From NCBI GenBank assembly GCA_011523635.1, contig WTGI01000059.1, positions 1 to 64,000 on the forward strand: DNA of 64,000 nt, given 5' to 3'. Under the pieces are notes generated by a model. The model was given only the letters and a program-made list of their open reading frames with translations, had not been told where the DNA came from and made no database searches. How positions within the stretch are numbered: the first letter of the stretch is position 1; every line of letters begins with the position of its first letter. The stretch comes from Acidimicrobiia bacterium (GTDB lineage Bacteria > Actinomycetota > Acidimicrobiia > Spongiisociales > Spongiisociaceae). The translations under genes and the position numbers were made by a program. Positions 23,300 through 43,884 of this stretch are shown in pieces.

Positions 23300-25402
23300 A
23301 TGGTCGGATCAGCAGGCAACGGGTTACGGGTAGGTGTCGATATCGGCGGCACCTTCACCGACCTGATGATGATCGGCCAGTCCGGACAGGTCGAGATCGG
23401 CAAGGTGCTCACCACTCCCGATCCGTCGCGAGGGGTCGAGGAGGTGCTGGTGCGAACGCTCGATCGTTCGGGCTACTCCGGTGCTTCGGTCCGCCATCTG
23501 GTGCACGGCACCACCCTGGTAACCAATGCCATCATCGAGCGCAAGGGCGCCCGGACAGCTCTGCTCACCACCTCGGGGTTCCGGGACTCAATAGAGATAG
23601 GCCGCGAGCATCGCTACGAGCTGTACGACCTGAACCTGGAGCACCCCAGGCCGCTCGTGCCCCGCCATCTCCGTTTCGATGTGCCTGAGCGGACCTTGAC
23701 CGATGGCGCGCAGGCCATCGAACTCGGTGGGGACTACGTGGCGCGCCTGGTCCGTGAGTTGGCCGGCGCCGGCGTGGAGGCGGTGGCCATCTGCTTCCTC
23801 CATTCCTTCGCCAATCCCGAGTCCGAGGAACAGGCCAGGGGTGTAGTCAATGGACAGGCCCCGGAGATGCGGGTCTCGATCTCCTCGGAGGTCGTTCCCG
23901 AGATCGGCGAGTTCGAGCGGGCCTCCACGACGATCGCCAACGTCTATGTCCAGCCACTGGTAGAGGACTACCTGCATGGACTCCGCCGCCGCATGGAGAG
24001 GATCGGATTCGAAGGGCAGCTGTTCGTGATGCTCTCGAGCGGCGGTGTGGCCACCCTCGACACCTGTGTCCGGTTCCCGATCCGTCTCCTCGAGTCGGGC
24101 CCGGCCGCCGGAGCGCTGGCGGCGGCGGCGGTAGGGACGGCCATGGGCCGTGACTCGCTGCTGTCCTTCGACATGGGGGGTACCACCGCCAAACTCAGCG
24201 TGGTGGACGGGGGCGAGCCCCTCGTCACCCACGACTTCGAGGTGGACCGCCGCTATCGCTTCAAGAAGGGCTCCGGTCTTCCGGTGAAGGTTCCGGTCAT
24301 AGAGATGATCGAGATCGGCGCGGGCGGGGGGTCCATCGCCCGGGTCGACTCCCTGGGGCTGCTCAAGGTGGGTCCCGACTCGGCCGGCGCCGATCCCGGA
24401 CCGGTCTGTTACTCCCGGGGCGGGACGTCCCCCACGGTGACCGACGCCGATCTGGTACTCGGCTACCTGGACCCCGATTACTTCCTGGGCGGCGCAATGA
24501 AGCTGGACGTGGCCGCCGCCGAAGCCTCCCTCGCCAGGAGCATTGGCAGCCCGTTGGGGATGTCGGTTCCGGAGGCCGCCTGGGGGGTTCACCAGGTCGT
24601 CAACGAGGCCATGGCCAACGCCGCCCGGGTCCATGTAGTGGAACGCGGGAAGAACCCCAGAGCCCTGCCGGTGGTCGCCTTCGGAGGCGCCGGACCGGTC
24701 CATGGTTACGGTGTCGCCGAGTTGTTGGGCAGCACCGAGTTGGTACTGCCCTACGGCGCCGGCGTCACCAGCGCCATGGGCCTCCTGGTGGCGCCGCTCG
24801 CCTTCGACTTCGTGCGGTCCTACTACGGAAGGCTCGACGAATTGGACTGGGGTGCGGTGACCGGCATATTCGAGGAAATGGAGCGGGAAGGAACCGACCT
24901 TCTGGTGGAGTCGGGCGCCGGACGTGACGAGATCACTCACACGAGGACCGCTGACATTCGCTACGTGGGCCAGGGCCACGAGATACGGGTTCCGATCCCG
25001 GACGGGTCGCTGACGGTCCGCCAGCGCCGGACGATATACGAGGAGTTCGACCGGGTCTACCAGACCCTTTACGGCCGGGAGGGGCCTCCGGTCGGTCTCG
25101 AGGCCCTCACCTGGCGCGTGGTGAGCCGGGGACCGCGCCCCATGCCCGTCGAGACGGCCAGGGGCGACGTGACCGGCGATGCTGAGGCGGCCCGCAAGGG
25201 TGAGCGCCCGGCCTTCTTCCCGTCCGAGGGGGGATTCGTCACCACGCCGGTATACGACCGCTACCGGCTGGGTCCCGGCTCGACGATGGCCGGGCCGGCG
25301 ATCATCGAGGAGCGGGAGTCCACCGCCATCATCGGACCGGGCGGCCTGGTGCGGGTGGACGACCGGCTCAACATCGTCGTCTCGCTCGGAGGGGAAGTAT
25401 GA
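23300..25402 (+). CDS. hyuA: Hydantoinase/oxoprolinase family protein, A subunit
   Basis: RVGVDIGGTFTDLMMI; VHGTTLVTNAIIERKGARTALLTTSGFRDSIEIGRE; SFDMGGTTAKLSVV; GAGGGSIARVD. Confidence 0.95.
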   Translation: MVGSAGNGLRVGVDIGGTFTDLMMIGQSGQVEIGKVLTTPDPSRGVEEVLVRTLDRSGYSGASVRHLVHGTTLVTNAIIERKGARTALLTTSGFRDSIEIGREHRYELYDLNLEHPRPLVPRHLRFDVPERTLTDGAQAIELGGDYVARLVRELAGAGVEAVAICFLHSFANPESEEQARGVVNGQAPEMRVSISSEVVPEIGEFERASTTIANVYVQPLVEDYLHGLRRRMERIGFEGQLFVMLSSGGVATLDTCVRFPIRLLESGPAAGALAAAAVGTAMGRDSLLSFDMGGTTAKLSVVDGGEPLVTHDFEVDRRYRFKKGSGLPVKVPVIEMIEIGAGGGSIARVDSLGLLKVGPDSAGADPGPVCYSRGGTSPTVTDADLVLGYLDPDYFLGGAMKLDVAAAEASLARSIGSPLGMSVPEAAWGVHQVVNEAMANAARVHVVERGKNPRALPVVAFGGAGPVHGYGVAELLGSTELVLPYGAGVTSAMGLLVAPLAFDFVRSYYGRLDELDWGAVTGIFEEMEREGTDLLVESGAGRDEITHTRTADIRYVGQGHEIRVPIPDGSLTVRQRRTIYEEFDRVYQTLYGREGPPVGLEALTWRVVSRGPRPMPVETARGDVTGDAEAARKGERPAFFPSEGGFVTTPVYDRYRLGPGSTMAGPAIIEERESTAIIGPGGLVRVDDRLNIVVSLGGEV

Positions 25403-27135
25403 CCAGCCGGACGCGTCTGGATCCGGTCCTCATCGAGGTGCTCTGGAGCCGGGTCCTGTCGGTCGTCAACGAGCAGCAGGTGGCCCTGCAGCGGACGGCC
25501 TTCAGCACCATCGTGCGTGAGACCCAGGACCTGGCCTGTGGGGTCTTCGACACCAACGGCTGGATGATGGCCCAGTCGGTCACCGGGACCCCCGGGCACA
25601 TCAACGCCATGGCCACCGGGGTACGCCATTTCCTGAAGGAGTACCCGCCGGGCACGCTTAGCCCCGGAGACGTGCTGCTCACCAACGACCCCTGGATGAC
25701 CGCCGGCCAGATCAACGACATAACGGTGTTGACGCCGGTCTTTAGGAACGGCATCGAGGTTGCCTACTTCGCCAACACCTGCCACGCGGCCGACATCGGC
25801 GGGCGCATTCTCTCCGCCGAGGCCCGAGAGGTGTACGAGGAGGGCCTGCGTATCCCCATCATGAAGCTGTACGACCGGGGCGCCATCAACCAGGACCTGA
25901 TCTCCATCGTCCGGGCCAACGTCCGCACCCCTGATGAGACGGTGGGCGATCTGTATGCCCAGACCTCTTGCAACGACGTCGGCGCCAGGGCGCTGCTCAG
26001 CTTCATGGACGAGTTCGAACTCGACTCCATCGATCCTCTTTCCCACGAGATCATCAGCCGCTCGGAGGAGGCGATGCGCGGCGCCATCCGGGAGATTCCC
26101 AACGGCGTGCACGAGCACGAGACCTGGAGCGACGGCTTCGAGGAGCCGATCCTCATCAAGGCGAAGGTGACCATCGAGGACGAGGACATCCTCATCGACT
26201 TCGCCGGTTCGTCGCCGGAGAGCGTCCGGGGAATCAACGTGGTCTTCAACTACACCCACGCCTATGCCTCCTTCGCGATGAAGGCGGCCATCAGCCCCGA
26301 TGTTCCCCACAACGACGGGGCCTTCCGTCCGGTGCACGTGTCGGCCCCTCCCGGGTCGATCCTCAACTGCCTGGAGCCTGCCGCAGTGGCCTCCCGGCAC
26401 ATCATCGGCCACTTCCTGCCCGGGGTCGTGTTCGGTGCGCTGGCGGAGGCCTTGCCCGACCAGCTTATGGCGCCCGGTTCCGACCCGATCTGGATCTCGA
26501 TCTGGCGGGGGAGGCCCCGGCGGTCGGACGACCGGTTTACCTTCAGCCTGTTCCAGTGCGGCGGGGCGGGGGCTCGGGCGGCCAAGGACGGCCTCAACAC
26601 GACCGGCTTCCCCAGCGGGGTGGCGGGGGTGCCGGCCGAGTCCGTGGAGACCCTCACATCCATGGTCCAGCATCGGCGGGAACTACGCACCGACTCCGGC
26701 GGAGCGGGCAGGTTCCGAGGCGGGCTGGGGCAGTGGACCGAGATGAGCTGTCGCACCGACGAGCCTTGGACGGTCTCGGGCATGGTCGATCGCATCTCCT
26801 ACCCGCCCGAGGGGCTGCTGGGAGGAGGGTACGGAGCGGCCGGCGAGTTCCGGATCGACGGCGCCAAGGAGGCTCAACCGAAACGCCTGCTGGTACTCGA
26901 CCCCGCCAGCCGGGTGCAGCTCAACCTGCCGGGCGGCGGCGGCTACGGAGATCCGTTCACCCGGGACCCCGGGGCGGTCCTGTGGGACGTTATCGAGGGC
27001 TATGTCTCCGTGGAGGGGGCGAGGCGTGACTACGGCGTGGTGGTCGAGTACCTCGGCGATGGCGACCAACTGGTACGTCTACCCGCCGACTACCGCCTCG
27101 ACCTGGAAGCCACAGAGTTGCTGCGTACGTCCTGA
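25399..27135 (+). CDS. hyuB: Hydantoinase B/oxoprolinase family protein
   Basis: DPVLIEVLWSRVLSVVNEQQVALQRTAFSTIVRETQDLACGVFD; DVLLTNDPWMTAGQINDITVLTPVF; ATGA-type overlap with hyuA. Confidence 0.95.
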   Translation: MTSRTRLDPVLIEVLWSRVLSVVNEQQVALQRTAFSTIVRETQDLACGVFDTNGWMMAQSVTGTPGHINAMATGVRHFLKEYPPGTLSPGDVLLTNDPWMTAGQINDITVLTPVFRNGIEVAYFANTCHAADIGGRILSAEAREVYEEGLRIPIMKLYDRGAINQDLISIVRANVRTPDETVGDLYAQTSCNDVGARALLSFMDEFELDSIDPLSHEIISRSEEAMRGAIREIPNGVHEHETWSDGFEEPILIKAKVTIEDEDILIDFAGSSPESVRGINVVFNYTHAYASFAMKAAISPDVPHNDGAFRPVHVSAPPGSILNCLEPAAVASRHIIGHFLPGVVFGALAEALPDQLMAPGSDPIWISIWRGRPRRSDDRFTFSLFQCGGAGARAAKDGLNTTGFPSGVAGVPAESVETLTSMVQHRRELRTDSGGAGRFRGGLGQWTEMSCRTDEPWTVSGMVDRISYPPEGLLGGGYGAAGEFRIDGAKEAQPKRLLVLDPASRVQLNLPGGGGYGDPFTRDPGAVLWDVIEGYVSVEGARRDYGVVVEYLGDGDQLVRLPADYRLDLEATELLRTS

Positions 27136-27770: not shown

Positions 27771-29078
27771 CTAGGGTGGGCGCACCTCGCCGGTTCCGGG
27801 AAGTCCGAGTCCCATCCAGGGACGGCGCAACTGCTGAGGCCGCATCACGTCCCACTTCTTCATCTCGGACACATGCCTTCGTGTCATCGGTTCCGCGTGT
27901 CCGAGAACTCTCTTGCGGATCATCGACCTCCAAGCCTTGTCACAGAGGCGGAACGTGCCTGGATGGATCCTCATGGGCCAGTCCAGTTCGATCGACGGAA
28001 GGCCCCCGAGTCTCGATGTCATGAAGTGTGGCAGGGTACTCACGCGATCACGGGCGAAGGAGAAGACGTAGCCTTGGTACAGGGGTTCGCGCTCCAGGAA
28101 CTCATGTACGTCCTTGCGGTCGTACGGTCTCCAGTCAGCATGGTGTCCGTCATCGACCACCGTACGGATCACATCCCTGCGCATGCACTTGGTGCACCGC
28201 TGACAAGCGCTGCCATCGCGCTCCGTGCAATAGACCACTCTTCCCGACCGGATGAGGTCGAGTGATAGTGCCATTGTGAGGTACTCGCTCGCGCCGCATA
28301 CGGGTGAGAAGAGGGGTATCCCGATGTCGTCGAATGCCGACTGCCAGAAGTTCCCGGTTGGTCCGTGCCACTTTCTGGCCTTGAAGCGGTTGTAGTAGCG
28401 GGTCCCCTTGTGAAGGAGGGTGCCCCCGAGGTTCGACCCCATGAGGATGATCCCGAACCGGTAGTCCGTTGCCAACAGTAAGGAGGTGGCAAACGCGCAG
28501 GTCCACCCGTGCCACCCGCCCGGATCCGAGACGTACCGTTGGTTCGTAGTCACTACCCGGCCCCGGTCCGGACCGAGGTCTCGAACGAGGTCATGGGCAT
28601 CCGAAGGAACGACTTGGCCATTCCTTGTGTGAGCTTCGTGCACGACGAAGGCTTCGGGGAACATCTTGTGGACGGCGCTGGAGTCTATGCCGCCTCCAAA
28701 CGAGAGAGCCATTCTCGAAGCCTCATACTTTCGAATTCCACGATCGACGTTGTCGAACCGGAACTGACGCTTGAACGAGTTTCTTCTGAACGCCTTCTCG
28801 AGCCTGGGTGACACCGGGCTGGGGAAGACCACTCGTCGCCCTATGAACGGATAGAAGATTGTCAAGCAGAGAAGACCCAACAGGTCCGGATGAATGGACC
28901 GCACGCCGTAGTCGAAGGTTATCTCTTGCCCTGAGTAGGTGATCGGCTGGCCCGATCCTTCTTGGCGCTCGCCGGCTGGTTTCTCGTCGGGCTCGAATAT
29001 GGCGCGTAACGTAGAAGAGTCCTTGCCGGACTCGAACTCGAACCTCATGTCGCCGACAGCGTAGTGACAGGGCGGCAA
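27771..29078 (-). CDS. Orphan PP-loop ATP-pyrophosphatase-like protein (QueC/N-type; DUF6395-like) with Cys cluster
   Basis: MALSFGGGIDSSAV PP-loop motif; GIPLFSPVCGASEYLTMAL; CTERDGSACQRCTKCMRRD candidate zinc site. Confidence 0.65.
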   Translation of the reverse strand: MPPCHYAVGDMRFEFESGKDSSTLRAIFEPDEKPAGERQEGSGQPITYSGQEITFDYGVRSIHPDLLGLLCLTIFYPFIGRRVVFPSPVSPRLEKAFRRNSFKRQFRFDNVDRGIRKYEASRMALSFGGGIDSSAVHKMFPEAFVVHEAHTRNGQVVPSDAHDLVRDLGPDRGRVVTTNQRYVSDPGGWHGWTCAFATSLLLATDYRFGIILMGSNLGGTLLHKGTRYYNRFKARKWHGPTGNFWQSAFDDIGIPLFSPVCGASEYLTMALSLDLIRSGRVVYCTERDGSACQRCTKCMRRDVIRTVVDDGHHADWRPYDRKDVHEFLEREPLYQGYVFSFARDRVSTLPHFMTSRLGGLPSIELDWPMRIHPGTFRLCDKAWRSMIRKRVLGHAEPMTRRHVSEMKKWDVMRPQQLRRPWMGLGLPGTGEVRPP

Positions 29079-30498: not shown

Positions 30499-30696
30499 TT
30501 CCTGTTCCCAATCTCGCGCGTTCGCTGCTGCAGGTACCTCGCTACCCGTACCGCGACGACACCACCGGTGCCAGCCGCCGCTGGTTGGTATCCTGCCCCG
30601 GCAGGCGGCCTACCGCGTTGCCGGCGGATGCCCACCCTCCAAGGTCTAGGGTACAGCAGGGCGCCCGCACGCCCGTGAGGACCGATTGGAGACCGA

Positions 30697-32784
30697 TTGC
30701 AGTCGAGAGCACCGTTCGTAGCGCCGGGCGCCGGGGCCGTGTTCCAACTCGAGTTGGCGAGGCCGTACCGCATCATCGTGGCCGGGGACGGCGCCCGGGT
30801 GGAGGACTCCACCGGCAAGCGGTACCTGGACGCCATGAGCGGCGGTTCCATGGCGGCCACTCTGGGCCACGGCCGCCGCGACCTCATCGATCTGGTCTGG
30901 GAGCAATCCCGCCGGGTCGGATACCTGGACAACAACCACCTGACCAATCCATGGCAGGAGTCCCTGGCGGCGAAGCTGGTGGATGTGGCCCCGCCGGGGT
31001 TCACGAGGGCGCGGTTCGTAACGGGAGGCTCCGAGGCCAACGAGGCCGCCATTCGGGCCGCCCGCATGTACCACGTGGCCCGCGGTGAGCCGCAGCGCTG
31101 GCAGATCATCTCGCCCGCCCAGGCCTATCACGGCCCCACCATGCAGACCCTCGCCCTCACCGGTAGGCCCGGCTTGCAGGGGGCCTTCGGGCCCTACCTC
31201 ACCCGTCACCGGCACATACCACCCTCCACCGACCGCTTCGACGCGACCGGGCAGCAGGCGCTCGACGCGCTGGACGAGGCAATCGAGCAGGTCGGTCCGG
31301 AGAACGTATCCGCCTTCTTCTGCGAGCCCGTGAGCGCCGCCTCGCTGCCCGCCTACTCGCCCCCGGCCCGGTTCTGGGAGGGGCTGGCGGAGCGCAGGGA
31401 GCGCCACGGTTTCCTGATCTGCTTCGACGAGGTGGTGACGGGGATCGGCCGGACCGGTAACTGGTTCGCGGCCAACGACCTCCCGATCGTTCCCGATGTG
31501 GTCGCCACGGCCAAGGGTTTGGGGGCCGGTTACACCGCCATCGGGGCCGTCCTCTACCGCAATTCTGTGTACGAGGCGATCGCCTCCGAGGTGCGCTCGT
31601 TCTCGCTGGGTCACACCTGGGACGGCTCGCCGCTGCCGTGCGCCGTGGGCCTGGCGGTGCTCGGAATCCTCGAGTCCGAAGGCTGGGTCGACCACGTGGC
31701 GGCACGGGGTCCGTCGCTCCGCCGGGAGCTGGAGGAGGCCCTCTCGGGCATCGATCTCTTGGGGGAGGTCCGGGGGCGGGGCTACCTGCTCGGGATCGAC
31801 TACGTGGATCCCCGGGATGGCCGGTCCTTCCTTCCTCCGGAGCTAGGCGTGGCGGGGCGGATCGAGCGGGCCGCGGCTCGTCACGGTCTACTGGTACTGG
31901 GCACGATGCCGACCCGGGATGGATTCGCAGGTGACCAGCATCTGTTCGCGCCGCCCTTCCCGACCCCGGACGGCGATCTCGAGGAGATGGTGGATCTGAT
32001 GGCTGCCGCCGTAGGGGAGGTCGCCGCCGAGGTGAGGGGCGAGCTCGGCTCGAATCTGTCCCCCGGAGGCGGTCCGTCCGCGGGGCTTCGTGTCCTGATC
32101 GTCCAGCACGAGGACCCGACACCGGCCGGGTTCGTCCACGAGTGGTTGGAGGACCAGGGCGCCGACGTGGAGATCTACCGCATCGACCTCGAGGACCGCT
32201 GCGTCGATCCCACCCGCTACGACCTGATCGTGTCGCTCGGCTCCGAGCTGGCGGCCTTCGACGACTCGATCCCCTGGATCGACCGGGAGAAGGACCTGCT
32301 GGTGGAGGCCTACGGCGCCGACGTTCCGATCCTCGGCCTATGTTTCGGCGGCCAGCTGCTGGCGAGGGTCCTCGGCGGTGATTCCTACCGTGGGGAGCTG
32401 TCCGAGGTCGGCTGGTTACCGGTACGTAGCACCAACGAGGACCTGGTGCCTGCCGGACCCTGGTTCCAATGGCACTTCGACACCTTCTCGGTTCCGCCCG
32501 GAGGCGAGCTCATCGCGGACAGCGAAGCCGGGCCGCAGGCGTTCGTGGTGGGACGCAGCCTCGGCGTGCAGTTCCATCCGGAGGTCACCGACGAGATCAT
32601 GGACGGCTGGGTCGACGTCTACCGCCACGAACTCGACGACGAGGGGGTCGATCCCGATGCCCTGCTGGAGGAAACCCGCCGGCTTGCCCCGAGAGCGAGA
32701 GCCGTCGCGGCACAGTTGCTCGAGCGCTACACAGAGGACATAGCCGGCCTGGCCCTGCCGGGACGTGGAGGTAACCGATCATGA
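30697..32784 (+). CDS. Fusion: class-III PLP aminotransferase (N-term) plus class-I glutamine amidotransferase domain (C-term)
   Basis: Aminotransferase: VTGGSEANEAAIRAARMYH, CFDEVVTGIGRTGNWFA, PDVVATAKGLGAGY. GATase: VLIVQHEDPTPAGF, VPILGLCFGGQLLARVLGG (Cys), LGVQFHPEV (His/Glu). Confidence 0.9.
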   Translation: MQSRAPFVAPGAGAVFQLELARPYRIIVAGDGARVEDSTGKRYLDAMSGGSMAATLGHGRRDLIDLVWEQSRRVGYLDNNHLTNPWQESLAAKLVDVAPPGFTRARFVTGGSEANEAAIRAARMYHVARGEPQRWQIISPAQAYHGPTMQTLALTGRPGLQGAFGPYLTRHRHIPPSTDRFDATGQQALDALDEAIEQVGPENVSAFFCEPVSAASLPAYSPPARFWEGLAERRERHGFLICFDEVVTGIGRTGNWFAANDLPIVPDVVATAKGLGAGYTAIGAVLYRNSVYEAIASEVRSFSLGHTWDGSPLPCAVGLAVLGILESEGWVDHVAARGPSLRRELEEALSGIDLLGEVRGRGYLLGIDYVDPRDGRSFLPPELGVAGRIERAAARHGLLVLGTMPTRDGFAGDQHLFAPPFPTPDGDLEEMVDLMAAAVGEVAAEVRGELGSNLSPGGGPSAGLRVLIVQHEDPTPAGFVHEWLEDQGADVEIYRIDLEDRCVDPTRYDLIVSLGSELAAFDDSIPWIDREKDLLVEAYGADVPILGLCFGGQLLARVLGGDSYRGELSEVGWLPVRSTNEDLVPAGPWFQWHFDTFSVPPGGELIADSEAGPQAFVVGRSLGVQFHPEVTDEIMDGWVDVYRHELDDEGVDPDALLEETRRLAPRARAVAAQLLERYTEDIAGLALPGRGGNRS

Positions 32785-34163
32785 CCGGATCGGCCGGGGC
32801 GAATGGCCAGGCAGTCATCGACACCGCCTCGACCAGCGTGTTCCACAAGTTCCTCGACCGGACCTATCCGAGTATCGATCGGGGCGAGGGCGTGTGGCTG
32901 TACACGACCGGAGGCGGGCGCATCCTCGACGCCTGCTCAGGCGGGGCGATGACGGCCGGTCTCGGTCACGGGGTGGTGGAGATCGCGGACGCGGCCGAGG
33001 CCGCCATGGGCGACATCGCCTACTACTACGCCCACCACTTCACCAACCTGCCCCAGGAACGGCTGGCGGCTCGTCTGGTGGACATCGCCCCGGAGATGGC
33101 CAAGGTCCGTTTCCTGAGCGGCGGTTCCGAGGCCAATGAGACCGCTCTCAGGCTGGCCCGCCAGTACCACGTGGATCGCGGGGAGGGCACGCGGTGGCGG
33201 GTCATCTCTCCGGCCCAGGCCTACCACGGCGGAACCATGGCCACGGTGTCGCTCACCGGCCGCCCCACCTTCCGGGCACCGTTCGGCCCCTACCTCTCCG
33301 AGCACCTGCACATCCCTCCGTCCACCCCGAGGTTCGATCCGACCGGCGCTGCCGCTCTGGACGCACTCGACGAGGCGATCGAGCAGGCGGGCCCCGAGAC
33401 CGTGGCCGCCTTCTTCTGCGAGCCGGTGAGCGGTGCCTCCCTACCCGGCTACTCACCACCGGATCGGTTCTGGGAGGGGCTGGCGGAGCGGCGCGACCGG
33501 TACGGCTTCCTGGTGTGCTTCGACGAGGTGGTCACCGGCATGGGGCGCACGGGAGGCTGGTTCGCGTACCAGGGCCTGCCGATCACCCCCGACATCGTGA
33601 CCATCGGCAAGATGCTCGGCGGGGGCTACATGCCGCTGGCCGCCACCATGTGCCGCCAACCCGTCTACGACGTGTTGGCGAGCGGTTCGAAGGAGTTCGA
33701 TCTGGGCCACACCTGGGACGGCGCGCCTCTGAGCTGCGCGGTCGGTCTGGCAGTGCTCGACTACCTGGAACGGCACGACCTGGCGGGTCTGGCTGCGGAG
33801 CGCGGGCCGGCGCTTCTCGACCGGCTTCGGGCGGCGCTCGAGGGCTATGCGATCGTGGGGGAGGTCCGGGGCCGCGGGTTCCTGCTGGGCGTGGAGTACG
33901 TGGATCCCCGGGATGGCGTCTCCATACCGCCGGACCGGCTGGAGATCGCCGAACGGATCGACGCCTGCGCCCTGGAGAACGACCTGCTCGTGATGTCCAC
34001 CCACCCGAACGCCGATGGCTTTGCCGGGGATCAGACGGTCTTCGCCCCGGCCCTCACGAGCACGGACGAGGAACTGGACGAGATGATCGAGCGGTTGGCC
34101 CGGGTGGTGGGGGAGGTTGACCGGACGGTGACGGACCGCTTGGCGAACGGAGGAACGACATGA
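32781..34163 (+). CDS. Class-III PLP-dependent aminotransferase
   Basis: FLSGGSEANETALRLARQYH, CFDEVVTGMGRTGGWFA, PDIVTIGKMLGGGYMPLAA; paralogous to the N-terminal half of the upstream gene; ATGA overlap. Confidence 0.93.
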   Translation: MTGSAGANGQAVIDTASTSVFHKFLDRTYPSIDRGEGVWLYTTGGGRILDACSGGAMTAGLGHGVVEIADAAEAAMGDIAYYYAHHFTNLPQERLAARLVDIAPEMAKVRFLSGGSEANETALRLARQYHVDRGEGTRWRVISPAQAYHGGTMATVSLTGRPTFRAPFGPYLSEHLHIPPSTPRFDPTGAAALDALDEAIEQAGPETVAAFFCEPVSGASLPGYSPPDRFWEGLAERRDRYGFLVCFDEVVTGMGRTGGWFAYQGLPITPDIVTIGKMLGGGYMPLAATMCRQPVYDVLASGSKEFDLGHTWDGAPLSCAVGLAVLDYLERHDLAGLAAERGPALLDRLRAALEGYAIVGEVRGRGFLLGVEYVDPRDGVSIPPDRLEIAERIDACALENDLLVMSTHPNADGFAGDQTVFAPALTSTDEELDEMIERLARVVGEVDRTVTDRLANGGTT

Positions 34164-35452
34164 CCTGGAATCCTTCCGACGACGGCTTCGTCCTTCTGGG
34201 TATGCCGGATGTTCACGGCTCGGTACGGGGCAAGGCCTTCCGACCCGGCGCCTTCCGGTCGGCGGTGGAGAAGGGCACGGTGATGACCGACCTGTGGCTG
34301 GGTCTGGACCCGGTCGACATGCCGATCGCCGACTACCGGGAGTACGGGATCAACACCGGCGCGCCCGACCTGCTGCTGCAGCCGGACCCCGATACCCTCC
34401 GGCCGCTGGCGTGGAGGCCGGGTTGGGGGATATGCCTGGCCGATCCGAGCTGGCCGGACGGGTCCCGATGCCGGTTGGCCTCACGCGAGGTGCTGCGCGA
34501 TGTGTTGGCGGACCTGGCTGACATGGGCTACGAGGTGATGGCGGGTTTCGAGTACGAGGTCAGGATCTTCGACGGCGCCGGCGAGCCGCTTTCGTCGGGT
34601 ATCAGCTACAGCCTCGGGGAGATCGGCCGTTTCGACCGGCTGCTCGAGGTGCTGGTCCCGGCCCTCGAGGGTCTCGGCGTGAACCTCGAAGCGGTTCACA
34701 CCGAGGCGGGTCCTGGCCTGCTGGAGCTGAATATCTCCGCCCGGCGGGGCCTCCGGGCCGCCGACGACGCCGCGCTGCTCAAGTTCGCGGTCAAGGAGGT
34801 GGCGGCCTCCCTGGGCCTCACCGCCAGCTTCCTGGCCAAGACCATGCCGCTCGAGGAGGGTTCGAGCGGACACATCCACGTCTCGTTCTGGCGAGGCGAG
34901 CACAACGCCTTCGCCCCCACCGCGGAAGGTGAGTTTCCCGCGACGTGCATGTCGGCCATAGGGGGCATCCTCGATCATCTCCCGGCTGCTTCCCTCCTGG
35001 TCAACCCCACCGTCAACTCCTACAAGCGGCTGGTTCCCGGCTACTTCGCGCCGGTGAACGTGAGCTGGGGTTACGAGAACCGCTCCACCTCGGTGCGGGC
35101 CATCCGGGGCAACCGCCCGGCCCGTTCCCGGCTCGAGTGTCGCCGTCCCGGCGCTGACGCCAACCCCTACCTGGCGCTGGCGGCTCTGCTGGCCTCGGCG
35201 ATGATCGGGATCAGGGAGGGAGCGTCGCCCCCGGCGCCCGAGACCAAGGATGTCTCCGAGCGGGCGGACCTGCCACCGCTACCCAACTCGCTGGAGAGCG
35301 CCTTGAGGGCCTTCCGGGCCGATACTGCCTTGCAGGAGGCGATGGGCGCGGAGTTCAGCGACTACTACGCCATATCGAGGGCGTGGGAGCTGCGCGCCTG
35401 GCAGGAGAGCGTCAGCGACTGGGAGCGGGAGCGCTACACCAGAGCCGTCTAG
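34160..35452 (+). CDS. Glutamine synthetase family ligase (gamma-glutamylamine synthetase-like)
   Basis: MAGFEYEVRIFD, AVHTEAGPGLLELNISAR, SFLAKTMPLEEGSSGHIHVSFW, NPTVNSYKRLVPGYFAPVNVSWGYENRSTSVR. Confidence 0.92.
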   Translation: MTWNPSDDGFVLLGMPDVHGSVRGKAFRPGAFRSAVEKGTVMTDLWLGLDPVDMPIADYREYGINTGAPDLLLQPDPDTLRPLAWRPGWGICLADPSWPDGSRCRLASREVLRDVLADLADMGYEVMAGFEYEVRIFDGAGEPLSSGISYSLGEIGRFDRLLEVLVPALEGLGVNLEAVHTEAGPGLLELNISARRGLRAADDAALLKFAVKEVAASLGLTASFLAKTMPLEEGSSGHIHVSFWRGEHNAFAPTAEGEFPATCMSAIGGILDHLPAASLLVNPTVNSYKRLVPGYFAPVNVSWGYENRSTSVRAIRGNRPARSRLECRRPGADANPYLALAALLASAMIGIREGASPPAPETKDVSERADLPPLPNSLESALRAFRADTALQEAMGAEFSDYYAISRAWELRAWQESVSDWERERYTRAV

Positions 35453-35498: not shown

Positions 35499-37823
35499 TC
35501 ATTGACGGGATGGAGGGGCCAGCACTCTCTCGGGGGTTAGGGGTAGCCGGCTGGCGAGGCCGGGCCGGCCCAGGGCATGTTCTATCGCCGTGGCAATGGC
35601 GGCGGCCACTCCCGGGACGCCTCCCTCGCCCGCTCCCTTGATTCCGAGCGGGTTGGTGGCGGTCGGGTCCTGCTCGCCGATTAGAGCGGTCATGTTCGGC
35701 GCCTCGGCGAGCGTGGGCAGCAGGTAGTCCATGAACGATCCGCACAAGGGGTTGCCGTCCCCGTCGTAGGCGAACTGCTCGTACAGCGTGCCTCCTACCG
35801 CCTGGATGGCGCCCCCCTCCATCTGTCCCGCCACCAGCATCGGGTTGATCGCCCTCCCGATGTCGTAGTACAGGATCAACTGCTCGACCACCACCTCGCC
35901 CGTCTCCCCATCCACCCGGACGACTGCCAGGTTGGCGCCGCACGGGTAGACCACCCGTTCCGCCTCGAACACCGAGTCCACGGCCAGGCCCGGCTCGGAC
36001 CTTCCGTACTTCGGGGCCGTCACAGGATGGAGCCGGGCTGCGGCCTCGAAGATGGAGAGGCTGAACTCGGGCGATCCGGATACAAAAACGGAGCCGTCCC
36101 GGTAGTCCAGGTCGCCTGCGTCCACCTCGAAGTCCACGGCCGCCACCTGCTTGGCGATCCGCACCACTTCGTCGGCGGCCTGCACCAGGGCGCTGCCTGC
36201 GGTCACCGTCGATCGGCTGGCGTAGCTACCGATTCCGTAGGGCGTCCGGTCCGTGTCGAGTAGTTCCACCCGTACCCGGGTGTGATCCAGCTGGAGCCGT
36301 TCGGCCACGATCTGGGCCAGCACCGTGCGGATGCCCTGGCCGACCGAGGAGCATCCCGACCGGACCCGGACCAGACCGTCGGGATCGACTTCGACCGCGC
36401 CGGTCTCCCACGGACCCAAGCCCGACTTCTCCATGAACATCGCCACACCGACCCCGATCTGCTCCCCTGCCTCCCGGCGCTGCTCGAGCCCCTTCCAGTC
36501 GAACGAGCCGACCAGTCGGTCGAGGATGCTCGGGAAGTCGCCGTCGCTGAACAGCATCGGCTCGCCGGTTGACGACAGCGGGCGGGAGTAGGGGATGCGA
36601 TCGGGTTTGATCAGGTTGCGGCGCCGCACCTCGACGGGTTCCATGCCGATCTCGTTGGCGTACAGGTCGATGAGCCGCTCCCGCACGAAGCTGGATTCGA
36701 ACCTGCCGGGAGCCCGGTAGGTGCCGGTGGGGGTCTTGTTCGTGACCACGCACCGGGCCGTTCCCCGGTATGCCTCCATGTCGTAGGGGCCGGGGATCAT
36801 CGACAGGGTCAGGTCCGCCACGCGGATGCTGTGGGTGCGGGCGTAGGCGCCCATGTCCATGTCGAAGTCCGAGGCGATGGCGGAGATCCGGCCCTCCCGG
36901 TCACCCGCGATGCGCGCCCGATGGAACTGCTCGCGGGAGTGGTTTGCCGTTAGGAGGTGTTCCCTGCGGTCCTCGATCCAAGCCACGGATCGGCCCAGCC
37001 GGTCGGCCGCCCACACCGCCAGCACATCCTCGGGATACAGCTCGCCGCGCACCCCGAAGCCTCCCCCCACCGCCGTCTCGCGCATGCGTAGACGGCCGGG
37101 AGGCATGCCCAGGAGCGCGGCGGTGGTGGCCAGGTTCCAATGCGGCACCTTGGTCGCGCCGTGGACGGTGAGCCGTTCGCCGGCGGGGTCGAACTCGACC
37201 ACTATGCCCCGCGTCTCCATCGGCACGCCGCTGTGGCGGCCGGTGGCAAGCTCGGCCTCGACCACCACCTCCGCCTCCGCGAACACCCGTCCCGCGTCGC
37301 CGAAGCCGGCTTCGAGGGTGGTGACCAGGTTCTCCGGCTCGAACAGGCGCCGACCGGGCCGGTCCTCGGCCCCGGCATCCATCATCACCGGGTGGGTGTC
37401 GATGTCGGCGAACACCAGATCGGCGGCGTCCTCCGCCACGTACCGATCCCGAGCCACCACTACCGCCATCGGCTCGCCGACGAAGCGCACCCGGTCGTGG
37501 GCGATGATCGGCTGGAGGTACGGGGTCACGGTCTCGTCGAACGAAACCCGGGGCGGGATCCTGGGAATGCCACCGAGCGACCCGCTCACCTCTTCCGCGG
37601 TGAACACCGCCTCTACTCCCGGCACCCGGCGGGCCTCTGAGCAGTCGATGCTCCGCAGCGTGCCGTGGGCGACGGGCGCCCTCACCACCACCATGGTGAG
37701 CATGCCCGGAAGGCGGATATCGGCTACGTAGCGGGCCTTGCCGGCCAGCAGCGGAGGGTCCTCATGGCGCCGGATGGAGCTTCCGATACCACCGACAGGC
37801 GCCGGCCGCTGGTGTGGGGTCAT
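35499..37823 (-). CDS. Xanthine dehydrogenase/CoxL-family molybdopterin-binding large subunit (copy A)
   Basis: SIRRHEDPPLLAGKARYVADI; GGGFGVRGELYPEDVLAVWAA; GTYRAPGRFESSFVRERLID; GIKGAGEGGVPG. Confidence 0.93.
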   Translation of the reverse strand: MTPHQRPAPVGGIGSSIRRHEDPPLLAGKARYVADIRLPGMLTMVVVRAPVAHGTLRSIDCSEARRVPGVEAVFTAEEVSGSLGGIPRIPPRVSFDETVTPYLQPIIAHDRVRFVGEPMAVVVARDRYVAEDAADLVFADIDTHPVMMDAGAEDRPGRRLFEPENLVTTLEAGFGDAGRVFAEAEVVVEAELATGRHSGVPMETRGIVVEFDPAGERLTVHGATKVPHWNLATTAALLGMPPGRLRMRETAVGGGFGVRGELYPEDVLAVWAADRLGRSVAWIEDRREHLLTANHSREQFHRARIAGDREGRISAIASDFDMDMGAYARTHSIRVADLTLSMIPGPYDMEAYRGTARCVVTNKTPTGTYRAPGRFESSFVRERLIDLYANEIGMEPVEVRRRNLIKPDRIPYSRPLSSTGEPMLFSDGDFPSILDRLVGSFDWKGLEQRREAGEQIGVGVAMFMEKSGLGPWETGAVEVDPDGLVRVRSGCSSVGQGIRTVLAQIVAERLQLDHTRVRVELLDTDRTPYGIGSYASRSTVTAGSALVQAADEVVRIAKQVAAVDFEVDAGDLDYRDGSVFVSGSPEFSLSIFEAAARLHPVTAPKYGRSEPGLAVDSVFEAERVVYPCGANLAVVRVDGETGEVVVEQLILYYDIGRAINPMLVAGQMEGGAIQAVGGTLYEQFAYDGDGNPLCGSFMDYLLPTLAEAPNMTALIGEQDPTATNPLGIKGAGEGGVPGVAAAIATAIEHALGRPGLASRLPLTPERVLAPPSRQ

Positions 37824-37872
37824 GGGTCGGTAAGGCCTCGGGTTGGCGCCCGGATACTACACTCCGGCCCTC

Positions 37873-38730
37873 ATGAAGCCGGCTCCGTTCGACTACCACC
37901 AGGCCCGATCCGTGGCCGAAGCGGTGACCCACCTCGGTGAGTACGGCTACGAGGCAAAGGTCCTGGCCGGCGGCCAGAGCCTGGTGCCGGCCATGAACTT
38001 CCGTCTGGCCCGCCCCGCGGTCCTGGTCGACATCAACCCGCTGGACGAACTCGACTATCTCGAGGAGGACGGAGACACCCTCCGGATCGGAGCGATGGTC
38101 CGCCACGTGACCTTCGAGCGACCGGTCACGGAAGGCCCCACCGGCCGCCTCCTGACCATGGCCGCCCACCACGTCGGACATTTACCGATCAGGATCAGGG
38201 GTACTTTCGGGGGCAGCCTGGCCCATGCCGACCCCGCCGCGGAGTGGTGCGTGATCGCCCTGCTGCTCGATGCCGAACTGTCGACCCGGAGCCCGTCCGG
38301 TGGTCGTGACATCCCCGTGGAGGGTTTCTTCCAGACCGTCTTCACCACCGCTCTCGAACCCGAGGAGCTCTTGGTCGAGGCTCGCCTGCCCAAACTCTCC
38401 ACGCGCACCCGGGTCGGTTTCCAGCAGTTCAGCCGCCGCGCCGGTGACTTCGCCCTGGCCATGGCCGCAGTCGCTTTCGAGTCCGATGAAGGGCAGGTCG
38501 GGAACGCCCGCATCGCGCTCGGTGGAGTGAGTGATCGCCCGCTCCGGGCCGGCGAGGCGGAGCAGGCACTGGAGGGCCAGCCCGCTACCGAGGAGTCATT
38601 CCGCGCTGCCGCCGAGATCGCTGCTCTCGAGATCGACGCCATCGGCGACATCCACGGGTCCGCCGGCTACCGGCGGGACCTGGTGCGCGCCCTGACCCGA
38701 CGAGCCCTTGAGCAGGCGATCGCCGCGTGA
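37873..38730 (+). CDS. FAD-binding medium subunit (CoxM-like)
   Basis: KPAPFDYHQARSVAEAVTHLGEYGYEAKVLAGGQSLVPAMNFRLARP; RIRGTFGGSLAHADPAAEW; GGVSDRPLRAGEAE. Confidence 0.93.
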   Translation: MKPAPFDYHQARSVAEAVTHLGEYGYEAKVLAGGQSLVPAMNFRLARPAVLVDINPLDELDYLEEDGDTLRIGAMVRHVTFERPVTEGPTGRLLTMAAHHVGHLPIRIRGTFGGSLAHADPAAEWCVIALLLDAELSTRSPSGGRDIPVEGFFQTVFTTALEPEELLVEARLPKLSTRTRVGFQQFSRRAGDFALAMAAVAFESDEGQVGNARIALGGVSDRPLRAGEAEQALEGQPATEESFRAAAEIAALEIDAIGDIHGSAGYRRDLVRALTRRALEQAIAA

Positions 38731-41045
38731 TCCCGTGGATCGGGCAGCCGCTCCCGCGCTTCGAGGATCCGCCCCTACTCACCGGCGAGGGCCGGTTCGT
38801 GGCCGACCTCACCAGGGATGCCTCGTTCCTACGGTTTGTCCGTAGCCCGGTCGCCCACGGCCGGATCGTTTCCATTTCGGCGCCCGAGGGGATCACCGCC
38901 TTCACCGCCGAGGATCTGAAGGAGGTGCGTCCCATCCGGCCGCTGCTCCACCGGCCGGACTTCCACCCCATCGAGCAGCCGGTGCTGGCTTCCGGCAAGG
39001 TCCGATTCGTGGGTGAGCCCGTCGCGGTAGTGGTGGCGGGCACGCCCGAGGAGGCGGAGGATGCCGCCGAGCAGGTCTTCGTGGACATCGAGCCGGAGGA
39101 TTGCGTGATCAACGCCCCCGAAGCGCTCCGTCCGGGAGCGCCGGCCGTTCACGACCACCTGGAGGGCAACGTGGTGGTAGACGCCCGCTTCGAGACCGAG
39201 CGGGTCGACGAGGTCTTCTCCGGCGCCGCGGTGGTGGTGGACTTCGATCTACGTTCCCGGCGCCAGAACGCCCTCCCTTTGGAGGCTCGAGGCTCCATCG
39301 CCGCCTACGACCCCCGTTCGGGGCGGACCACCCTTACCGCTTCCGTCCAGTCGCCTCACGTGGTCCGCACCGTCCTGGCCGACCTGCTCGGCATGCCCGA
39401 GTCGGACCTCAGGGTGGTGGTCCCGGATGTGGGAGGAGCGTTCGGGCAGAAGTTCTGCCTGGCGCCGGAGGATGTGGTGACGGCCTGGGTGGCGCGACGG
39501 CTCCGGACCACGGTGTCATGGGTGGAGGACCGGCGCGAGAACCTGATGTCGTCCTTCCACAGCCGCGACCACCACTACCGGGTACGGGGCGCATTCGGCG
39601 CGGACGCCCGGCTGCTGGCGGTGGATGCCGACCTGCTATGCAACATCGGCGCCTACTCCTGCTACCCGGTGACCTGCGGGGTGGAGCCGCTGATGGCGCT
39701 GGCCGAGTTCCCCGGACCCTACGACTTCCGCACCTACCGGGTCCGGTCCCGCGGCGTCACCACCAACACCTGCCCGATGGCGCCCTACCGGGGGGTGTCG
39801 AGACCGGTGATCACCCTGGCCATGGAGCGCCTCATGGACCTGGCGGCGGTCCGCTTCGGGATCGAGCCCGCCGAGATCAGGCGGCGCAACCTGATAACGG
39901 AGTTCCCCTACGCCTCGGCCACCGGCCTGATGTACGACGAGGGTTCCTACGTGGAGTCCCTGGACCGGGCTGTCGAGGCGATAGGCCTGGAGGACTTCCG
40001 GGGCCGCCAGGCGGTGGCCCGGTCCGAGGGCCGCTACCTCGGGATCGGCTTCTCCGTGTTCTCGGAGCGCACCGGCTACGGGACATCGGCCTTCGCCGCC
40101 CGGAGCATGGACGTGACACCCGGATACGAGACCGTGGACCTGGCCATGGACCCGTCCGGCAACGTGGAGGCCCGATTGGGGGCCTCGCCGCACGGCCAGG
40201 GTTTGGAGACCACCCTCGCCCAGTTGATCGGGGACCGACTGGGTGTCGAGCCGGCTCGGGTCCGGATCGTTCACGGCGACACCGACCGCACGCCCTACGG
40301 ATGGGGTACGTTCGCCAGCAGGTCCCTGGTCATCGCCGGGGGAGCGGCCCGCCTGGCGTCCGACCGGCTCCGGGCCAAGCTGGCCGCCATCGCTTCCGCG
40401 GAGTTGGAGGCGGCGCCGGAGGACATCGTCATCCGGGCAGGCAGGGCGACCGTGAGGGGTACGGATGCCGGGATCGAGGTGGGGGACCTGGCCCGCCTCG
40501 CCTACCACTCCAGCCACCGCTTGGCCGCTGGCATGGATCCCGGACTCACCGCCACGGCCACCTACGACCCGGCCGGGACCTTTTCCAACGCCTGCCATGT
40601 GGCAACGGTGGAGGTGGACCCGGAGACAGGCGGGGTCAGGGTGGACCGGTTCGTGGTGGTGGAGGACGCCGGGCGCCTCATCAACCCGATGATCGTGGAC
40701 GGGCAACTCCACGGCGGGATCACCCAGGGGATCGCCGGAGCCCTGTACGAGGAGATCCGCTACGACGGGGAGGGCAACATCCTCACCACCTCGCTCATGG
40801 ACTTCCTGCCGCCCACCCTGGCCGAGGTTCCCACCATCGAGGTCCACCACCTGGAGACCATCTCCGAAGCCACCATCACCGGCGCCAAGGGCTTGGGAGA
40901 GGGGGGCACGATCGGCGCCCCGGCCGCCGTCATCAACGCGGTCGCCGATGCGCTCCGTCCCCTCGGCGTCGAGATCGCCGAGGTTCCGGCAACCCCGTCC
41001 CGGCTGCGTAGGCTGGTAAGCGAGAGGGAGAGGATTCCCGCATGA
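38727..41045 (+). CDS. Molybdopterin-binding large subunit (copy B)
   Basis: IGQPLPRFEDPPLLTGEGRFVADL; DVGGAFGQKFCLAPEDVVTAWVA; APYRGVSRPVITLAMERLMD; GAKGLGEGGTIGAPAAV. Confidence 0.92.
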   Translation: MIPWIGQPLPRFEDPPLLTGEGRFVADLTRDASFLRFVRSPVAHGRIVSISAPEGITAFTAEDLKEVRPIRPLLHRPDFHPIEQPVLASGKVRFVGEPVAVVVAGTPEEAEDAAEQVFVDIEPEDCVINAPEALRPGAPAVHDHLEGNVVVDARFETERVDEVFSGAAVVVDFDLRSRRQNALPLEARGSIAAYDPRSGRTTLTASVQSPHVVRTVLADLLGMPESDLRVVVPDVGGAFGQKFCLAPEDVVTAWVARRLRTTVSWVEDRRENLMSSFHSRDHHYRVRGAFGADARLLAVDADLLCNIGAYSCYPVTCGVEPLMALAEFPGPYDFRTYRVRSRGVTTNTCPMAPYRGVSRPVITLAMERLMDLAAVRFGIEPAEIRRRNLITEFPYASATGLMYDEGSYVESLDRAVEAIGLEDFRGRQAVARSEGRYLGIGFSVFSERTGYGTSAFAARSMDVTPGYETVDLAMDPSGNVEARLGASPHGQGLETTLAQLIGDRLGVEPARVRIVHGDTDRTPYGWGTFASRSLVIAGGAARLASDRLRAKLAAIASAELEAAPEDIVIRAGRATVRGTDAGIEVGDLARLAYHSSHRLAAGMDPGLTATATYDPAGTFSNACHVATVEVDPETGGVRVDRFVVVEDAGRLINPMIVDGQLHGGITQGIAGALYEEIRYDGEGNILTTSLMDFLPPTLAEVPTIEVHHLETISEATITGAKGLGEGGTIGAPAAVINAVADALRPLGVEIAEVPATPSRLRRLVSERERIPA

Positions 41046-41524
41046 GCGAGCGAACCAAGGTCGAGGTCACCCTCGCGGTCAACGGCCGGTCCTACCGGGT
41101 CCTGGTGGAGCCCCGGCGCACCCTGGCCGACACGCTCAGGGACGATTGCGGCCTCACGGGAACCCACCTGGGGTGCGAGCACGGCGTGTGCGGGGCCTGC
41201 ACGATCCTGGCCGACGGCCAACCGGTCCGGTCCTGCCTGATGTTCGCCGTCCAGTGCGAGGGCATGGACCTTCGCACGGTCGAGGACCTGGCCGACGGTG
41301 AGCGGCTCCATCCGATCCAGCAGGCCTTCTGGGACAACCACGGGCTCCAGTGTGGCTTCTGCACTCCGGGGTTCCTGATGCTGGCGGCCGGGTACCTGGA
41401 GCAGAATCCCGATCCCGACGAAGAGGAGCTGCGGGCCGTGCTGTCCTCCAACCTGTGCCGCTGCACCGGGTACCAGAACATACTGAAGTCGGTGCGCCAG
41501 GCCGCCGAGGTCATGCGGGGATGA
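41042..41524 (+). CDS. 2Fe-2S small subunit (CoxS-like)
   Basis: CGLTGTHLGCEHGVCGACTILADGQPVRSCLM; LQCGFCTPGFLMLAAGYLE; LSSNLCRCTGYQNILKSV. Confidence 0.96.
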   Translation: MSERTKVEVTLAVNGRSYRVLVEPRRTLADTLRDDCGLTGTHLGCEHGVCGACTILADGQPVRSCLMFAVQCEGMDLRTVEDLADGERLHPIQQAFWDNHGLQCGFCTPGFLMLAAGYLEQNPDPDEEELRAVLSSNLCRCTGYQNILKSVRQAAEVMRG

Positions 41525-43884
41525 GCTATGTCGGTAGCTCGGTCAAGAGGATCGAGGACCGACCACTACTGACAGGAAGGGCCCGGTTCGCGGCCGACCT
41601 GTCCCTTCCCGACCAGCTGCACATGAGGGTGGTGCGTTCCCCGGTGGCCCACGGCCGGTTGCTGGAGATCGACACCTCGGAGGCCCTTGCCATGGACGGG
41701 GTGGAGGCGGTCTGGACACGTGATGACGTCCGGGATGTACCGCCGATCGACTTCCGTATGCCCTGGGTGGAAGGTCTGGAACGGTTCCGCCAACCCATCC
41801 TCGCCGGCGACCACGTTCGCTACGTGGGGGAGCCGTTCGCGATCGTGCTGGCCGAGGACCCCTACCTGGCCGAGGACGCAGCCGAACTGGTCTTCGCCCA
41901 AATCGAGGAGCTCGATCCGGTGGTCGATCCGGTGGCGGCCGGGCCGGCGGCCACCGAGACGACGGTGGTGGAGAAGGCTTACGGGGACCTCGAGGGAGCG
42001 TTCGGGGATGCTCCGGTCGTCGTGGAGATGGAACTGGCGGTGGGGAGGCACTCCGGGGTGCCCATGGAGACCAGGGGAGCGGTGGCTCACTACGACGCGA
42101 CAAGGTCGGTGCTGGAGATGTTCGGCGCCGCCAAGGTGCCCCACCACAACCGGGCCGCCATAGCCTCGATGCTCGGCCTGCCACTCGGCGCCGTCGTTCT
42201 CCGGGAGGGTCACGTCGGAGGGGGGTTCGGGATCAGGGGAGAGCTCTATCCGGAGGACGTGCTGGTGTGCCTGACCGCCCTCCGCCTGGGGCGCCCCGTC
42301 CGCTGGGTGGAGGATCGCCGGGAGCACATGCTGGCCGCCAACCACTCCCGCGATCAGGTCCACCGGATAAGGGCGGCGGTGGAACCCGACGGCTGGATCA
42401 GGGGTGTTGTCGACGAGTTCTGGGTGGACCAGGGGGCCTACCTGCGGACCCATCAGGTGACGGTCACCGAGCTCACCACCTCTATGCTCCCGGGGCCGTA
42501 CGCCTGGCCCGCATACCGGAGCCGCGGCCATGTGATGCTCAGCAACAAGACCCCATGCGGTACCTACCGGGCCCCCGGCCGGTACGAGAGCACTTTCGTC
42601 CGCGAGCGCCTGATCGACGTCATAGCGCACCGGCTCGGTCTCGACCCGGCCGAGGTTCGCCGCCGCAACCTGGTCCTGCCGGAGCGCATGCCCTTCAAAC
42701 GGGGGATCACCGCGCTCGGTACCGAGTTGACCTACGACTCCGGCGACTACCCGGGTCTCCTGGATCGGACCCTCGAGTACCTGGACTACGAGCGGTTGAC
42801 GGCCGACCTCGCCCGGAGGCGGTCGGATGGCGAGTTGGTGGGCCTCGGCATGGGGTTCTTCGTGGAGAAGAGCGGTCTCGGTCCGTTCGACGGGGTCAGG
42901 GTCACCGTGGACGAGGCGGGAGACGTACTGGTGATCACCGGCGTGGCCTCGATCGGTCAGGGCGTCGAGACGGTGCTGGCGCAGGTGTGCGCCGACACGC
43001 TGGGCGTGGAAATCGGATCGATCCGGGTACGACACGGCCAGACCGACGACCTCCCCTACGGGATGGGCGCCTTCGCCAGCCGGGTCACCGTCATGTCCGG
43101 CTCCGCCACCCTGATCGCTGCCCGCCGCGTGCGGCGCAAGGCCTTGGATGTGGCGGCCTCGGTGCTGGAGGCCGATCCGGGTGACCTCACCATCGACGGG
43201 GGCCGGGTATTCGTCCGGGGCTCGCCGGGCGGCCCGGCCATCACGCTGGGCGAGGTGGCGCAGAGGCTCCGTCCCGGCATGACCGGTGGCGAGCCCGGCC
43301 TCACCGCCGAGGGCTGGTTCCAGGCGGACCACATGGTCTATCCCTACGGCATCCACGCCGCGGTCGTCCGGGTGGATCCTGACTCCGGCCTGGTCGAGGT
43401 GGAACGGCTCGTGGTGGCCTACGAGGTCGGCAAGGCGGTCAACCCGGAACTGGTCAACGGCCAGATTGCCGGCGGCGCCGCCCAGGGCATCGGGGGCGCG
43501 CTGCTCGAGGACTTCGCCTATGACGAGGCCGGCCAGCCCCTGGCCGCCACGTTCATGGACTACCTGATGCCGACCGTCACCGAGATGCCGGAAGTGGAGG
43601 TGCTGCTGCTCGAGGAAGCGCCCAGCCCGCTCAACCCGCTCGGCGTCAAGGGAGCGGGTGAGGGAGGCATCACCGCGGTAGGGGCGGCCGTCGCGAACGC
43701 CGTGGCCGACGCGCTGGGATGTCCTGAGAACGTGACCCGCCTGCCGCTGGGTCCGGAGCGGGTCCGCCGGATCGTTGCCGACACCGACCGAGGAAGCGGC
43801 CGGCGCTCGGCGGGACTCGCTTTCGATCGGTCTCCCAGCGGGCCGCGAAGCTCAGGCCTAGTCAAGCCCGGCGCTTACCGCTAG
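41521..43884 (+). CDS. Molybdopterin-binding large subunit (copy C)
   Basis: Start ATG 41521 (ATGA overlap): MSYVGSSVKRIEDRPLLTGRARFAADL; GGGFGIRGELYPEDVLVCLTA; GTYRAPGRYESTFVRERLID. Confidence 0.93.
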   Translation: MSYVGSSVKRIEDRPLLTGRARFAADLSLPDQLHMRVVRSPVAHGRLLEIDTSEALAMDGVEAVWTRDDVRDVPPIDFRMPWVEGLERFRQPILAGDHVRYVGEPFAIVLAEDPYLAEDAAELVFAQIEELDPVVDPVAAGPAATETTVVEKAYGDLEGAFGDAPVVVEMELAVGRHSGVPMETRGAVAHYDATRSVLEMFGAAKVPHHNRAAIASMLGLPLGAVVLREGHVGGGFGIRGELYPEDVLVCLTALRLGRPVRWVEDRREHMLAANHSRDQVHRIRAAVEPDGWIRGVVDEFWVDQGAYLRTHQVTVTELTTSMLPGPYAWPAYRSRGHVMLSNKTPCGTYRAPGRYESTFVRERLIDVIAHRLGLDPAEVRRRNLVLPERMPFKRGITALGTELTYDSGDYPGLLDRTLEYLDYERLTADLARRRSDGELVGLGMGFFVEKSGLGPFDGVRVTVDEAGDVLVITGVASIGQGVETVLAQVCADTLGVEIGSIRVRHGQTDDLPYGMGAFASRVTVMSGSATLIAARRVRRKALDVAASVLEADPGDLTIDGGRVFVRGSPGGPAITLGEVAQRLRPGMTGGEPGLTAEGWFQADHMVYPYGIHAAVVRVDPDSGLVEVERLVVAYEVGKAVNPELVNGQIAGGAAQGIGGALLEDFAYDEAGQPLAATFMDYLMPTVTEMPEVEVLLLEEAPSPLNPLGVKGAGEGGITAVGAAVANAVADALGCPENVTRLPLGPERVRRIVADTDRGSGRRSAGLAFDRSPSGPRSSGLVKPGAYR

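Follow-up and report, generated by a model that had tools for sequence, protein, structure and literature searches.

A Natural Aminotransferase-Glutamine Amidotransferase Fusion Confined to One Acidimicrobiia Family and Its Possible Role in Gamma-Glutamylation

A gene of an Acidimicrobiia bacterium, carried by a stretch of 64,000 nucleotides that was analysed as a whole (hereafter the window), joins a class III aminotransferase and a class I glutamine amidotransferase (GATase) in one protein. This fusion is natural, conserved and confined to one Acidimicrobiia family. It results from a single, lineage-restricted merger of operon genes that were once separate and translationally coupled. As for its function, we lean, though not strongly, towards an omega-aminotransferase joined to a gamma-glutamyl-amide hydrolase, which would take part in the breakdown of a di- or polyamine-type substrate by gamma-glutamylation, through the steps proposed below.

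The fusion can be regarded as a natural Rosetta stone, in which two adjacent genes of a widespread and uncharacterised operon have merged in one lineage. Such a merger is good evidence for joint action of the GATase and the first aminotransferase. It also provides a testable role for the whole operon, made of a first class III aminotransferase (AT3a), the GATase, a second class III aminotransferase (AT3b) and a glutamine synthetase (GS)-like gene. This could help to annotate many genes recorded as "aspartate aminotransferase family" or "type 1 glutamine amidotransferase". Each domain is already of a known kind and the advance is modest.

The Fused Gene

The following features were delimited in and just ahead of the fused gene:
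30688-30691, + strand: Shine-Dalgarno-like GGAG preceding the TTG start, kept across the fused clade
30697-32784, + strand: fused class III aminotransferase-class I GATase gene, 695 aa, TTG start
30769-32007, + strand: Aminotran_3 domain, residues 25-437, with the PLP lysine K273 at 31513-31515
32041-32082, + strand: interdomain linker, residues 449-462 (about 14 residues), rich in Gly, Ser and Pro and predicted to be flexible
32083-32766, + strand: GATase domain, residues 463-690
32341-32343, 32575-32577 and 32581-32583, + strand: GATase triad Cys549, His627 and Glu629

The uninterrupted aminotransferase-GATase frame of 695 aa on which the original prediction was built is real: a single open frame covers exactly 30697-32784 on the + strand and matches two Pfam domains, Aminotran_3 (PF00202; residues 25-437, 241 bits for a cut-off of 30.5, E 2e-71) and GATase (PF00117; residues 486-632, 37.8 bits for a cut-off of 22.8, E 2e-9). 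The whole-fold PF00202 match, K273 and D244 together assign the first domain to the class III aminotransferases, an aspartate of which (the counterpart of D244) contacts the PLP ring nitrogen. Both residues are invariant in the 36 proteins compared (9 fused and 27 separate AT3a). In the same way, the PF00117 profile match and the Cys-His-Glu triad make the second domain a class I GATase. The triad, which had been described from the outset as apparently intact, is indeed so, C549, H627 and E629 being invariant in 43/43 proteins (9 fused, 25 separate GATases and 9 stand-alone GATases).

In all nine fused genes, the frame starts at the same site, with TTG or GTG, and the GGAG motif lies ahead of it. 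That the linker is read in this frame is shown by the absence of stop codons there in the fused genes, by indels that are all multiples of a codon, and by a pN/pS of 0.42 in the linker vs 0.17 in the two domains.

The predicted structure is confident for each domain on its own (the GATase modelled alone reaches a pLDDT of 94). The pLDDT is below 50 at linker residues 452-462, and the full-length pTM is only 0.62. Class III aminotransferases work as dimers, whereas the model is that of a monomer, in which no trustworthy interdomain interface or tunnel is found. The interdomain tunnel for which structure prediction had been recommended was thus not predicted and, because of the flexible linker and the pTM of the model, neither a tunnel nor a rigid hand-over is supported.

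By sequence and by fold, the solved proteins closest to the GATase domain are MsGATase (PDB 7d54) and TM1158 (PDB 1o1y), which differ from it in being stand-alone proteins and are 31-34% identical to it in the structural match. The closest of them, 7d54, was determined with glutamine and no gamma-glutamyl amide. Arabidopsis gamma-glutamyl peptidase 1 is a more distant fold relative. Membership of the PuuD (Peptidase_C26) family was rejected for lack of a full-length match: the 20.7 bits obtained against this profile (cut-off 20.5) come from stretches of which the best has 33 residues and none passes alone. No full-length protein of the PuuD family (Peptidase_C26) was found in the window's genome either.

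Distribution and Origin of the Fusion

When 84,980 species genomes were scanned, the same architecture was found in 8 further loci (L009-L016), in each of them as one ORF and with 77-98% identity. Within the window's own family, the fused ORF is present in 10 of 15 genomes and 3 of 4 genera, a set that overlaps with the 8 loci of the scan. Assembly error or chance is ruled out by this recurrence. The coding-type evolution of the linker and the grouping of the fused proteins in a single clade also speak against an assembly chimera, the support of this clade being 100/100 in the aminotransferase tree and 98/96 in the GATase tree. It had been anticipated that a chimera would be betrayed by homologues in which the two domains are always separate genes. 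Most relatives do have them as separate genes; the fusion is nonetheless genuine and conserved in one lineage.

At the thresholds used, no fused ORF was found outside the family in class-wide (247) and phylum-wide (397) samples of genomes, and no report of an aminotransferase-GATase fusion was found in the literature searched. A wide occurrence of the fusion across phyla was considered and rejected, as the tblastn rows that look full-length (L017-L050) correspond to two adjacent or overlapping genes. According to their coordinates, the long fused-looking ORFs of L026, L029, L037 and L041 are open frames that lie beside AT3a in another frame.

The loci L017-L050, in which AT3a and the GATase are separate genes, belong to another member of the Acidimicrobiia, other Actinomycetota, Chloroflexota and one contig binned as Arenicellales. 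In these split loci, the AT3a stop usually overlaps the GATase start by 4 bp (ATGA or GTGA). More generally, Actinomycetota and Chloroflexota keep the operon AT3a-GATase-AT3b-GS-like at about 40 loci, mostly with 4-bp overlaps. Among the split loci nearest to the fused clade in both trees is L022, whose surroundings are those of the window (HydA-HydB, divergent aldehyde dehydrogenase, AT3a-GATase-AT3b-GS).

In one other actinobacterial lineage, the GATase ATG comes directly after the TAG of AT3a and in frame with it (L017:1058-1063, L101:2857-2862, L102:1058-1063). With such a layout, one stop-codon change or read-through would yield a fusion.

One group of Chloroflexota (L019, L020, L024, L027, L028, L030, L033, L043) has FGGY kinase genes by the operon, directly upstream of AT3a in several loci. 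Most of these loci also carry genes of a DeoC/LacD aldolase and/or a zinc alcohol dehydrogenase. These neighbours hint at an amino-sugar or amino-polyol substrate in this group.

Genes Associated with the Fusion

The neighbours that bear most on function are as follows:
23300-27135, + strand: hydantoinase/oxoprolinase subunits A (HydA, 23300-25402) and B (HydB, 25399-27135), found next to several of the fused loci and also next to the split locus L022
29125-30498, - strand: aldehyde dehydrogenase (ALDH), divergent from the fusion and kept next to many of its relatives
32781-34163, + strand: AT3b, 460 aa, with an ATGA overlap with the fusion
34160-35452, + strand: GS-like gamma-glutamyl amine ligase (putative), 430 aa, with Phe296 (35045-35047) at the Glu327 position

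In true glutamine synthetases, the flap residue Glu327 and the FDGSS motif of the Asp50 region serve ammonia. The GS-like gene, which starts with a 4-bp overlap on AT3b, is not a true glutamine synthetase: Phe occupies the Glu327 position in all proteins of its alignment (Phe296 here) and FDGSS is absent. Residues E131, E133, E182, E189, H238, E326, R290, R313 and R328, involved in binding of metal, glutamate and ATP, are invariant. In the same way, the gamma-glutamylethanolamide synthetase GlnA4 has Phe331 at the E327 position and PauA7 has Trp296 (PMC6529630). By comparison with the residues listed in that study, the protein is thus of the GlnA4/PauA7 type (metal, glutamate and ATP residues kept, non-polar residue at E327, D50 lost) and, judging from these residues, it probably makes gamma-glutamyl amides. 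FDGSS, the glutamine synthetase motif, is present in another gene of the window's genome, and the GS-like gene therefore need not make glutamine.

The placement of AT3b between the fusion and the GS-like gene, which the original prediction had not stressed, matters for the reading of the pathway. With 56% identity, AT3a and AT3b are close paralogues. As both have the catalytic lysine and, in the set of proteins aligned, only four positions distinguish them consistently, their steps cannot be assigned by sequence alone. Elsewhere in the same genome, a second class III aminotransferase, 40% identical to AT3a, is divergent from an adjoining GS-family gene (contig C31:4641-7398; L003, L104); these two genes are a possible paralogous amine locus.

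The ALDH gives good scores with models of aminobutyraldehyde dehydrogenases, but these are below the cut-off, and none of the NCBIfam cut-offs for named activities is reached. It adjoins some split loci but not all. Between ALDH and HydB, a DUF6395 protein (27771-29078, - strand) is encoded, which is present only in some fused genomes. HydA and HydB may belong to the same catabolic unit as the fusion. Their nearest named family is caprolactamase, with 522 and 235 bits vs NCBIfam cut-offs of 1000; the assignment to an ATP-dependent caprolactamase was therefore rejected. They were not found beside the operon in Chloroflexota and in most actinobacterial loci.

The remaining neighbours in the window are, besides HydA/HydB, a dipeptide ABC transporter and molybdenum hydroxylases. 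In the latter set (35499-43884), one gene for a medium subunit and one for a small subunit are surrounded by three separate genes for large subunits, the profile check covering the first large subunit only. Neighbours of split loci include AA_permease_2, PuuD-family Peptidase_C26, GntR/FCD regulators and a second GS-family gene. In related loci, an Amidohydro_2 gene lies next to GS, a pairing that resembles glnA3-SCO6961 of S. coelicolor (PMC5403932). SCO6961 itself was considered as a GATase homologue and rejected, the same study calling it an amidohydrolase 2 family protein.

Proposed Pathway and Alternative Explanations

A ligase, a hydrolase, an ALDH and a transaminating enzyme, as expected of a gamma-glutamylation cluster, are found together here. 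In the pathway proposed, the GS-like ligase (34160-35452) would cap one amine of the substrate with glutamate, using ATP, AT3b (32781-34163) would deaminate the free end to an aldehyde and the divergent ALDH would oxidise this aldehyde. The GATase domain would then take off the glutamate and the fused aminotransferase domain would deaminate the freed omega-amino acid, two steps on one chain that would match those of PuuD and then PuuE in E. coli. These steps run exactly opposite to the order of the genes, AT3a-GATase-AT3b-GS. The coupling of the two domains would consist in the transaminase receiving the amine that is set free when the gamma-glutamyl amide is cut, which seems likelier than a release of ammonia. 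The gain from the fusion could be a fixed 1:1 ratio and possibly a hand-over of the product.

Although it stands outside the PuuD family, the GATase domain may act like PuuD, and it probably hydrolyses a gamma-glutamyl omega-amino acid. A 41% identical GATase homologue is encoded on a Rhodococcus plasmid beside a GS-like gene, oxygenase genes and a catechol dioxygenase, in an aniline-type cluster. A point against the pathway is that the ABC transporter, HydA/HydB and molybdenum hydroxylase neighbours are not specific to polyamines.

Other explanations have to be weighed. The setting could still be gamma-glutamylation, with the fused aminotransferase acting before the GATase: it would deaminate the glutamylated amine, the GATase would cut the oxidised product, and AT3b would take the final step or associate with AT3a in mixed dimers. 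The resemblance of the two aminotransferases, too close for sequence to set their order, leaves room for this, and a fusion tells of joint action, not of order. However, the aldehyde would have to pass through the separate ALDH before hydrolysis, which would break any direct hand-over between the fused domains, and the genes lie in exactly the reverse of the favoured order of steps; this variant is unlikely. Much less probable is a glutaminase-coupled enzyme, in which ammonia or glutamate released from glutamine by the GATase would feed the aminotransferase or the GS-like enzyme. PF00117 GATases commonly cut glutamine, and glutamine is the ligand in the nearest structure, 7d54. However, PLP aminotransferases take an amino donor and not free ammonia, a glutamate donor made from glutamine next to a GS-like ligase would be wasteful, this ligase lacks the ammonia-site residues, and the model predicts no interface or tunnel. 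For the original prediction, the consequence is a division: genomic context favours the idea that the GS-like ligase makes a gamma-glutamyl amide which the GATase cuts, while the release of ammonia to the aminotransferase is not supported, given the need for an amino donor and, in the model, the flexible linker and the pTM of 0.62.

HydA/HydB raise another alternative, in which they would open a lactam, the fused aminotransferase and ALDH would process the product, and the GATase and GS-like proteins would serve a side branch or detoxification. Such a pathway is that of caprolactam breakdown in Pseudomonas jessenii, in which CapAB works with an omega-aminotransferase of class III and a dehydrogenase (PMC6061476). 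The two proteins are closest, below the cut-off, to caprolactamase subunits and are kept beside several fused loci and L022. However, their absence beside the operon in Chloroflexota and most actinobacterial loci places them outside its core function, and such a route would not account for the conservation of the GS-like and GATase genes. A lactam route is thus improbable.

The gamma-glutamylation pathway with hydrolysis before the last transamination is the one favoured. In its most specific form, the fusion would be a natural bifunctional enzyme for the two final steps of a gamma-glutamylation pathway that dispenses with an oxidase, the GATase freeing the omega-amino acid, the fused aminotransferase taking this product directly and AT3b doing the job of PuuB; stated so fully, the proposal is tentative and somewhat doubtful. 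It would add a gamma-glutamylation route apparently with two transaminases and without flavin oxidase.

Comparison with Known Systems

The E. coli Puu pathway involves the ligase PuuA, the flavin oxidase PuuB, the ALDH PuuC, the hydrolase PuuD and the aminotransferase PuuE. As in this pathway, the cluster offers a GS-like ligase, an ALDH, a hydrolase of class I GATase fold and a class III aminotransferase, and related loci have a permease. However, the hydrolase and the aminotransferase are here one protein, the GATase matches PF00117 and not Peptidase_C26, and there is a second aminotransferase. No PuuB-type oxidase was found among the neighbours scanned.

The GlnA4 cluster of Streptomyces coelicolor also has a Phe at the E327 position of its ligase, an ALDH and a glutamine amidotransferase gene, but its genes are separate and no aminotransferase is listed in the cluster described (PMC6529630). 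In the arylamine systems AtdA1/AtdA2 and NpaA1/NpaA2, a GS-like gamma-glutamyl ligase has as its partner a GATase-like protein whose presumed role is to hydrolyse the gamma-glutamyl amide (PMC11335346). The ligase-GATase pairing is shared, and the Rhodococcus cluster with the 41% identical GATase resembles these systems. However, they feed a Rieske dioxygenase and not aminotransferases (PMC11335346). Finally, PtTamH offers a precedent: it too is a natural fusion of two domains, the N-terminal one being a PLP transaminase, but its partner domain is a thioester reductase and its pathway is biosynthetic (PMC9594044).
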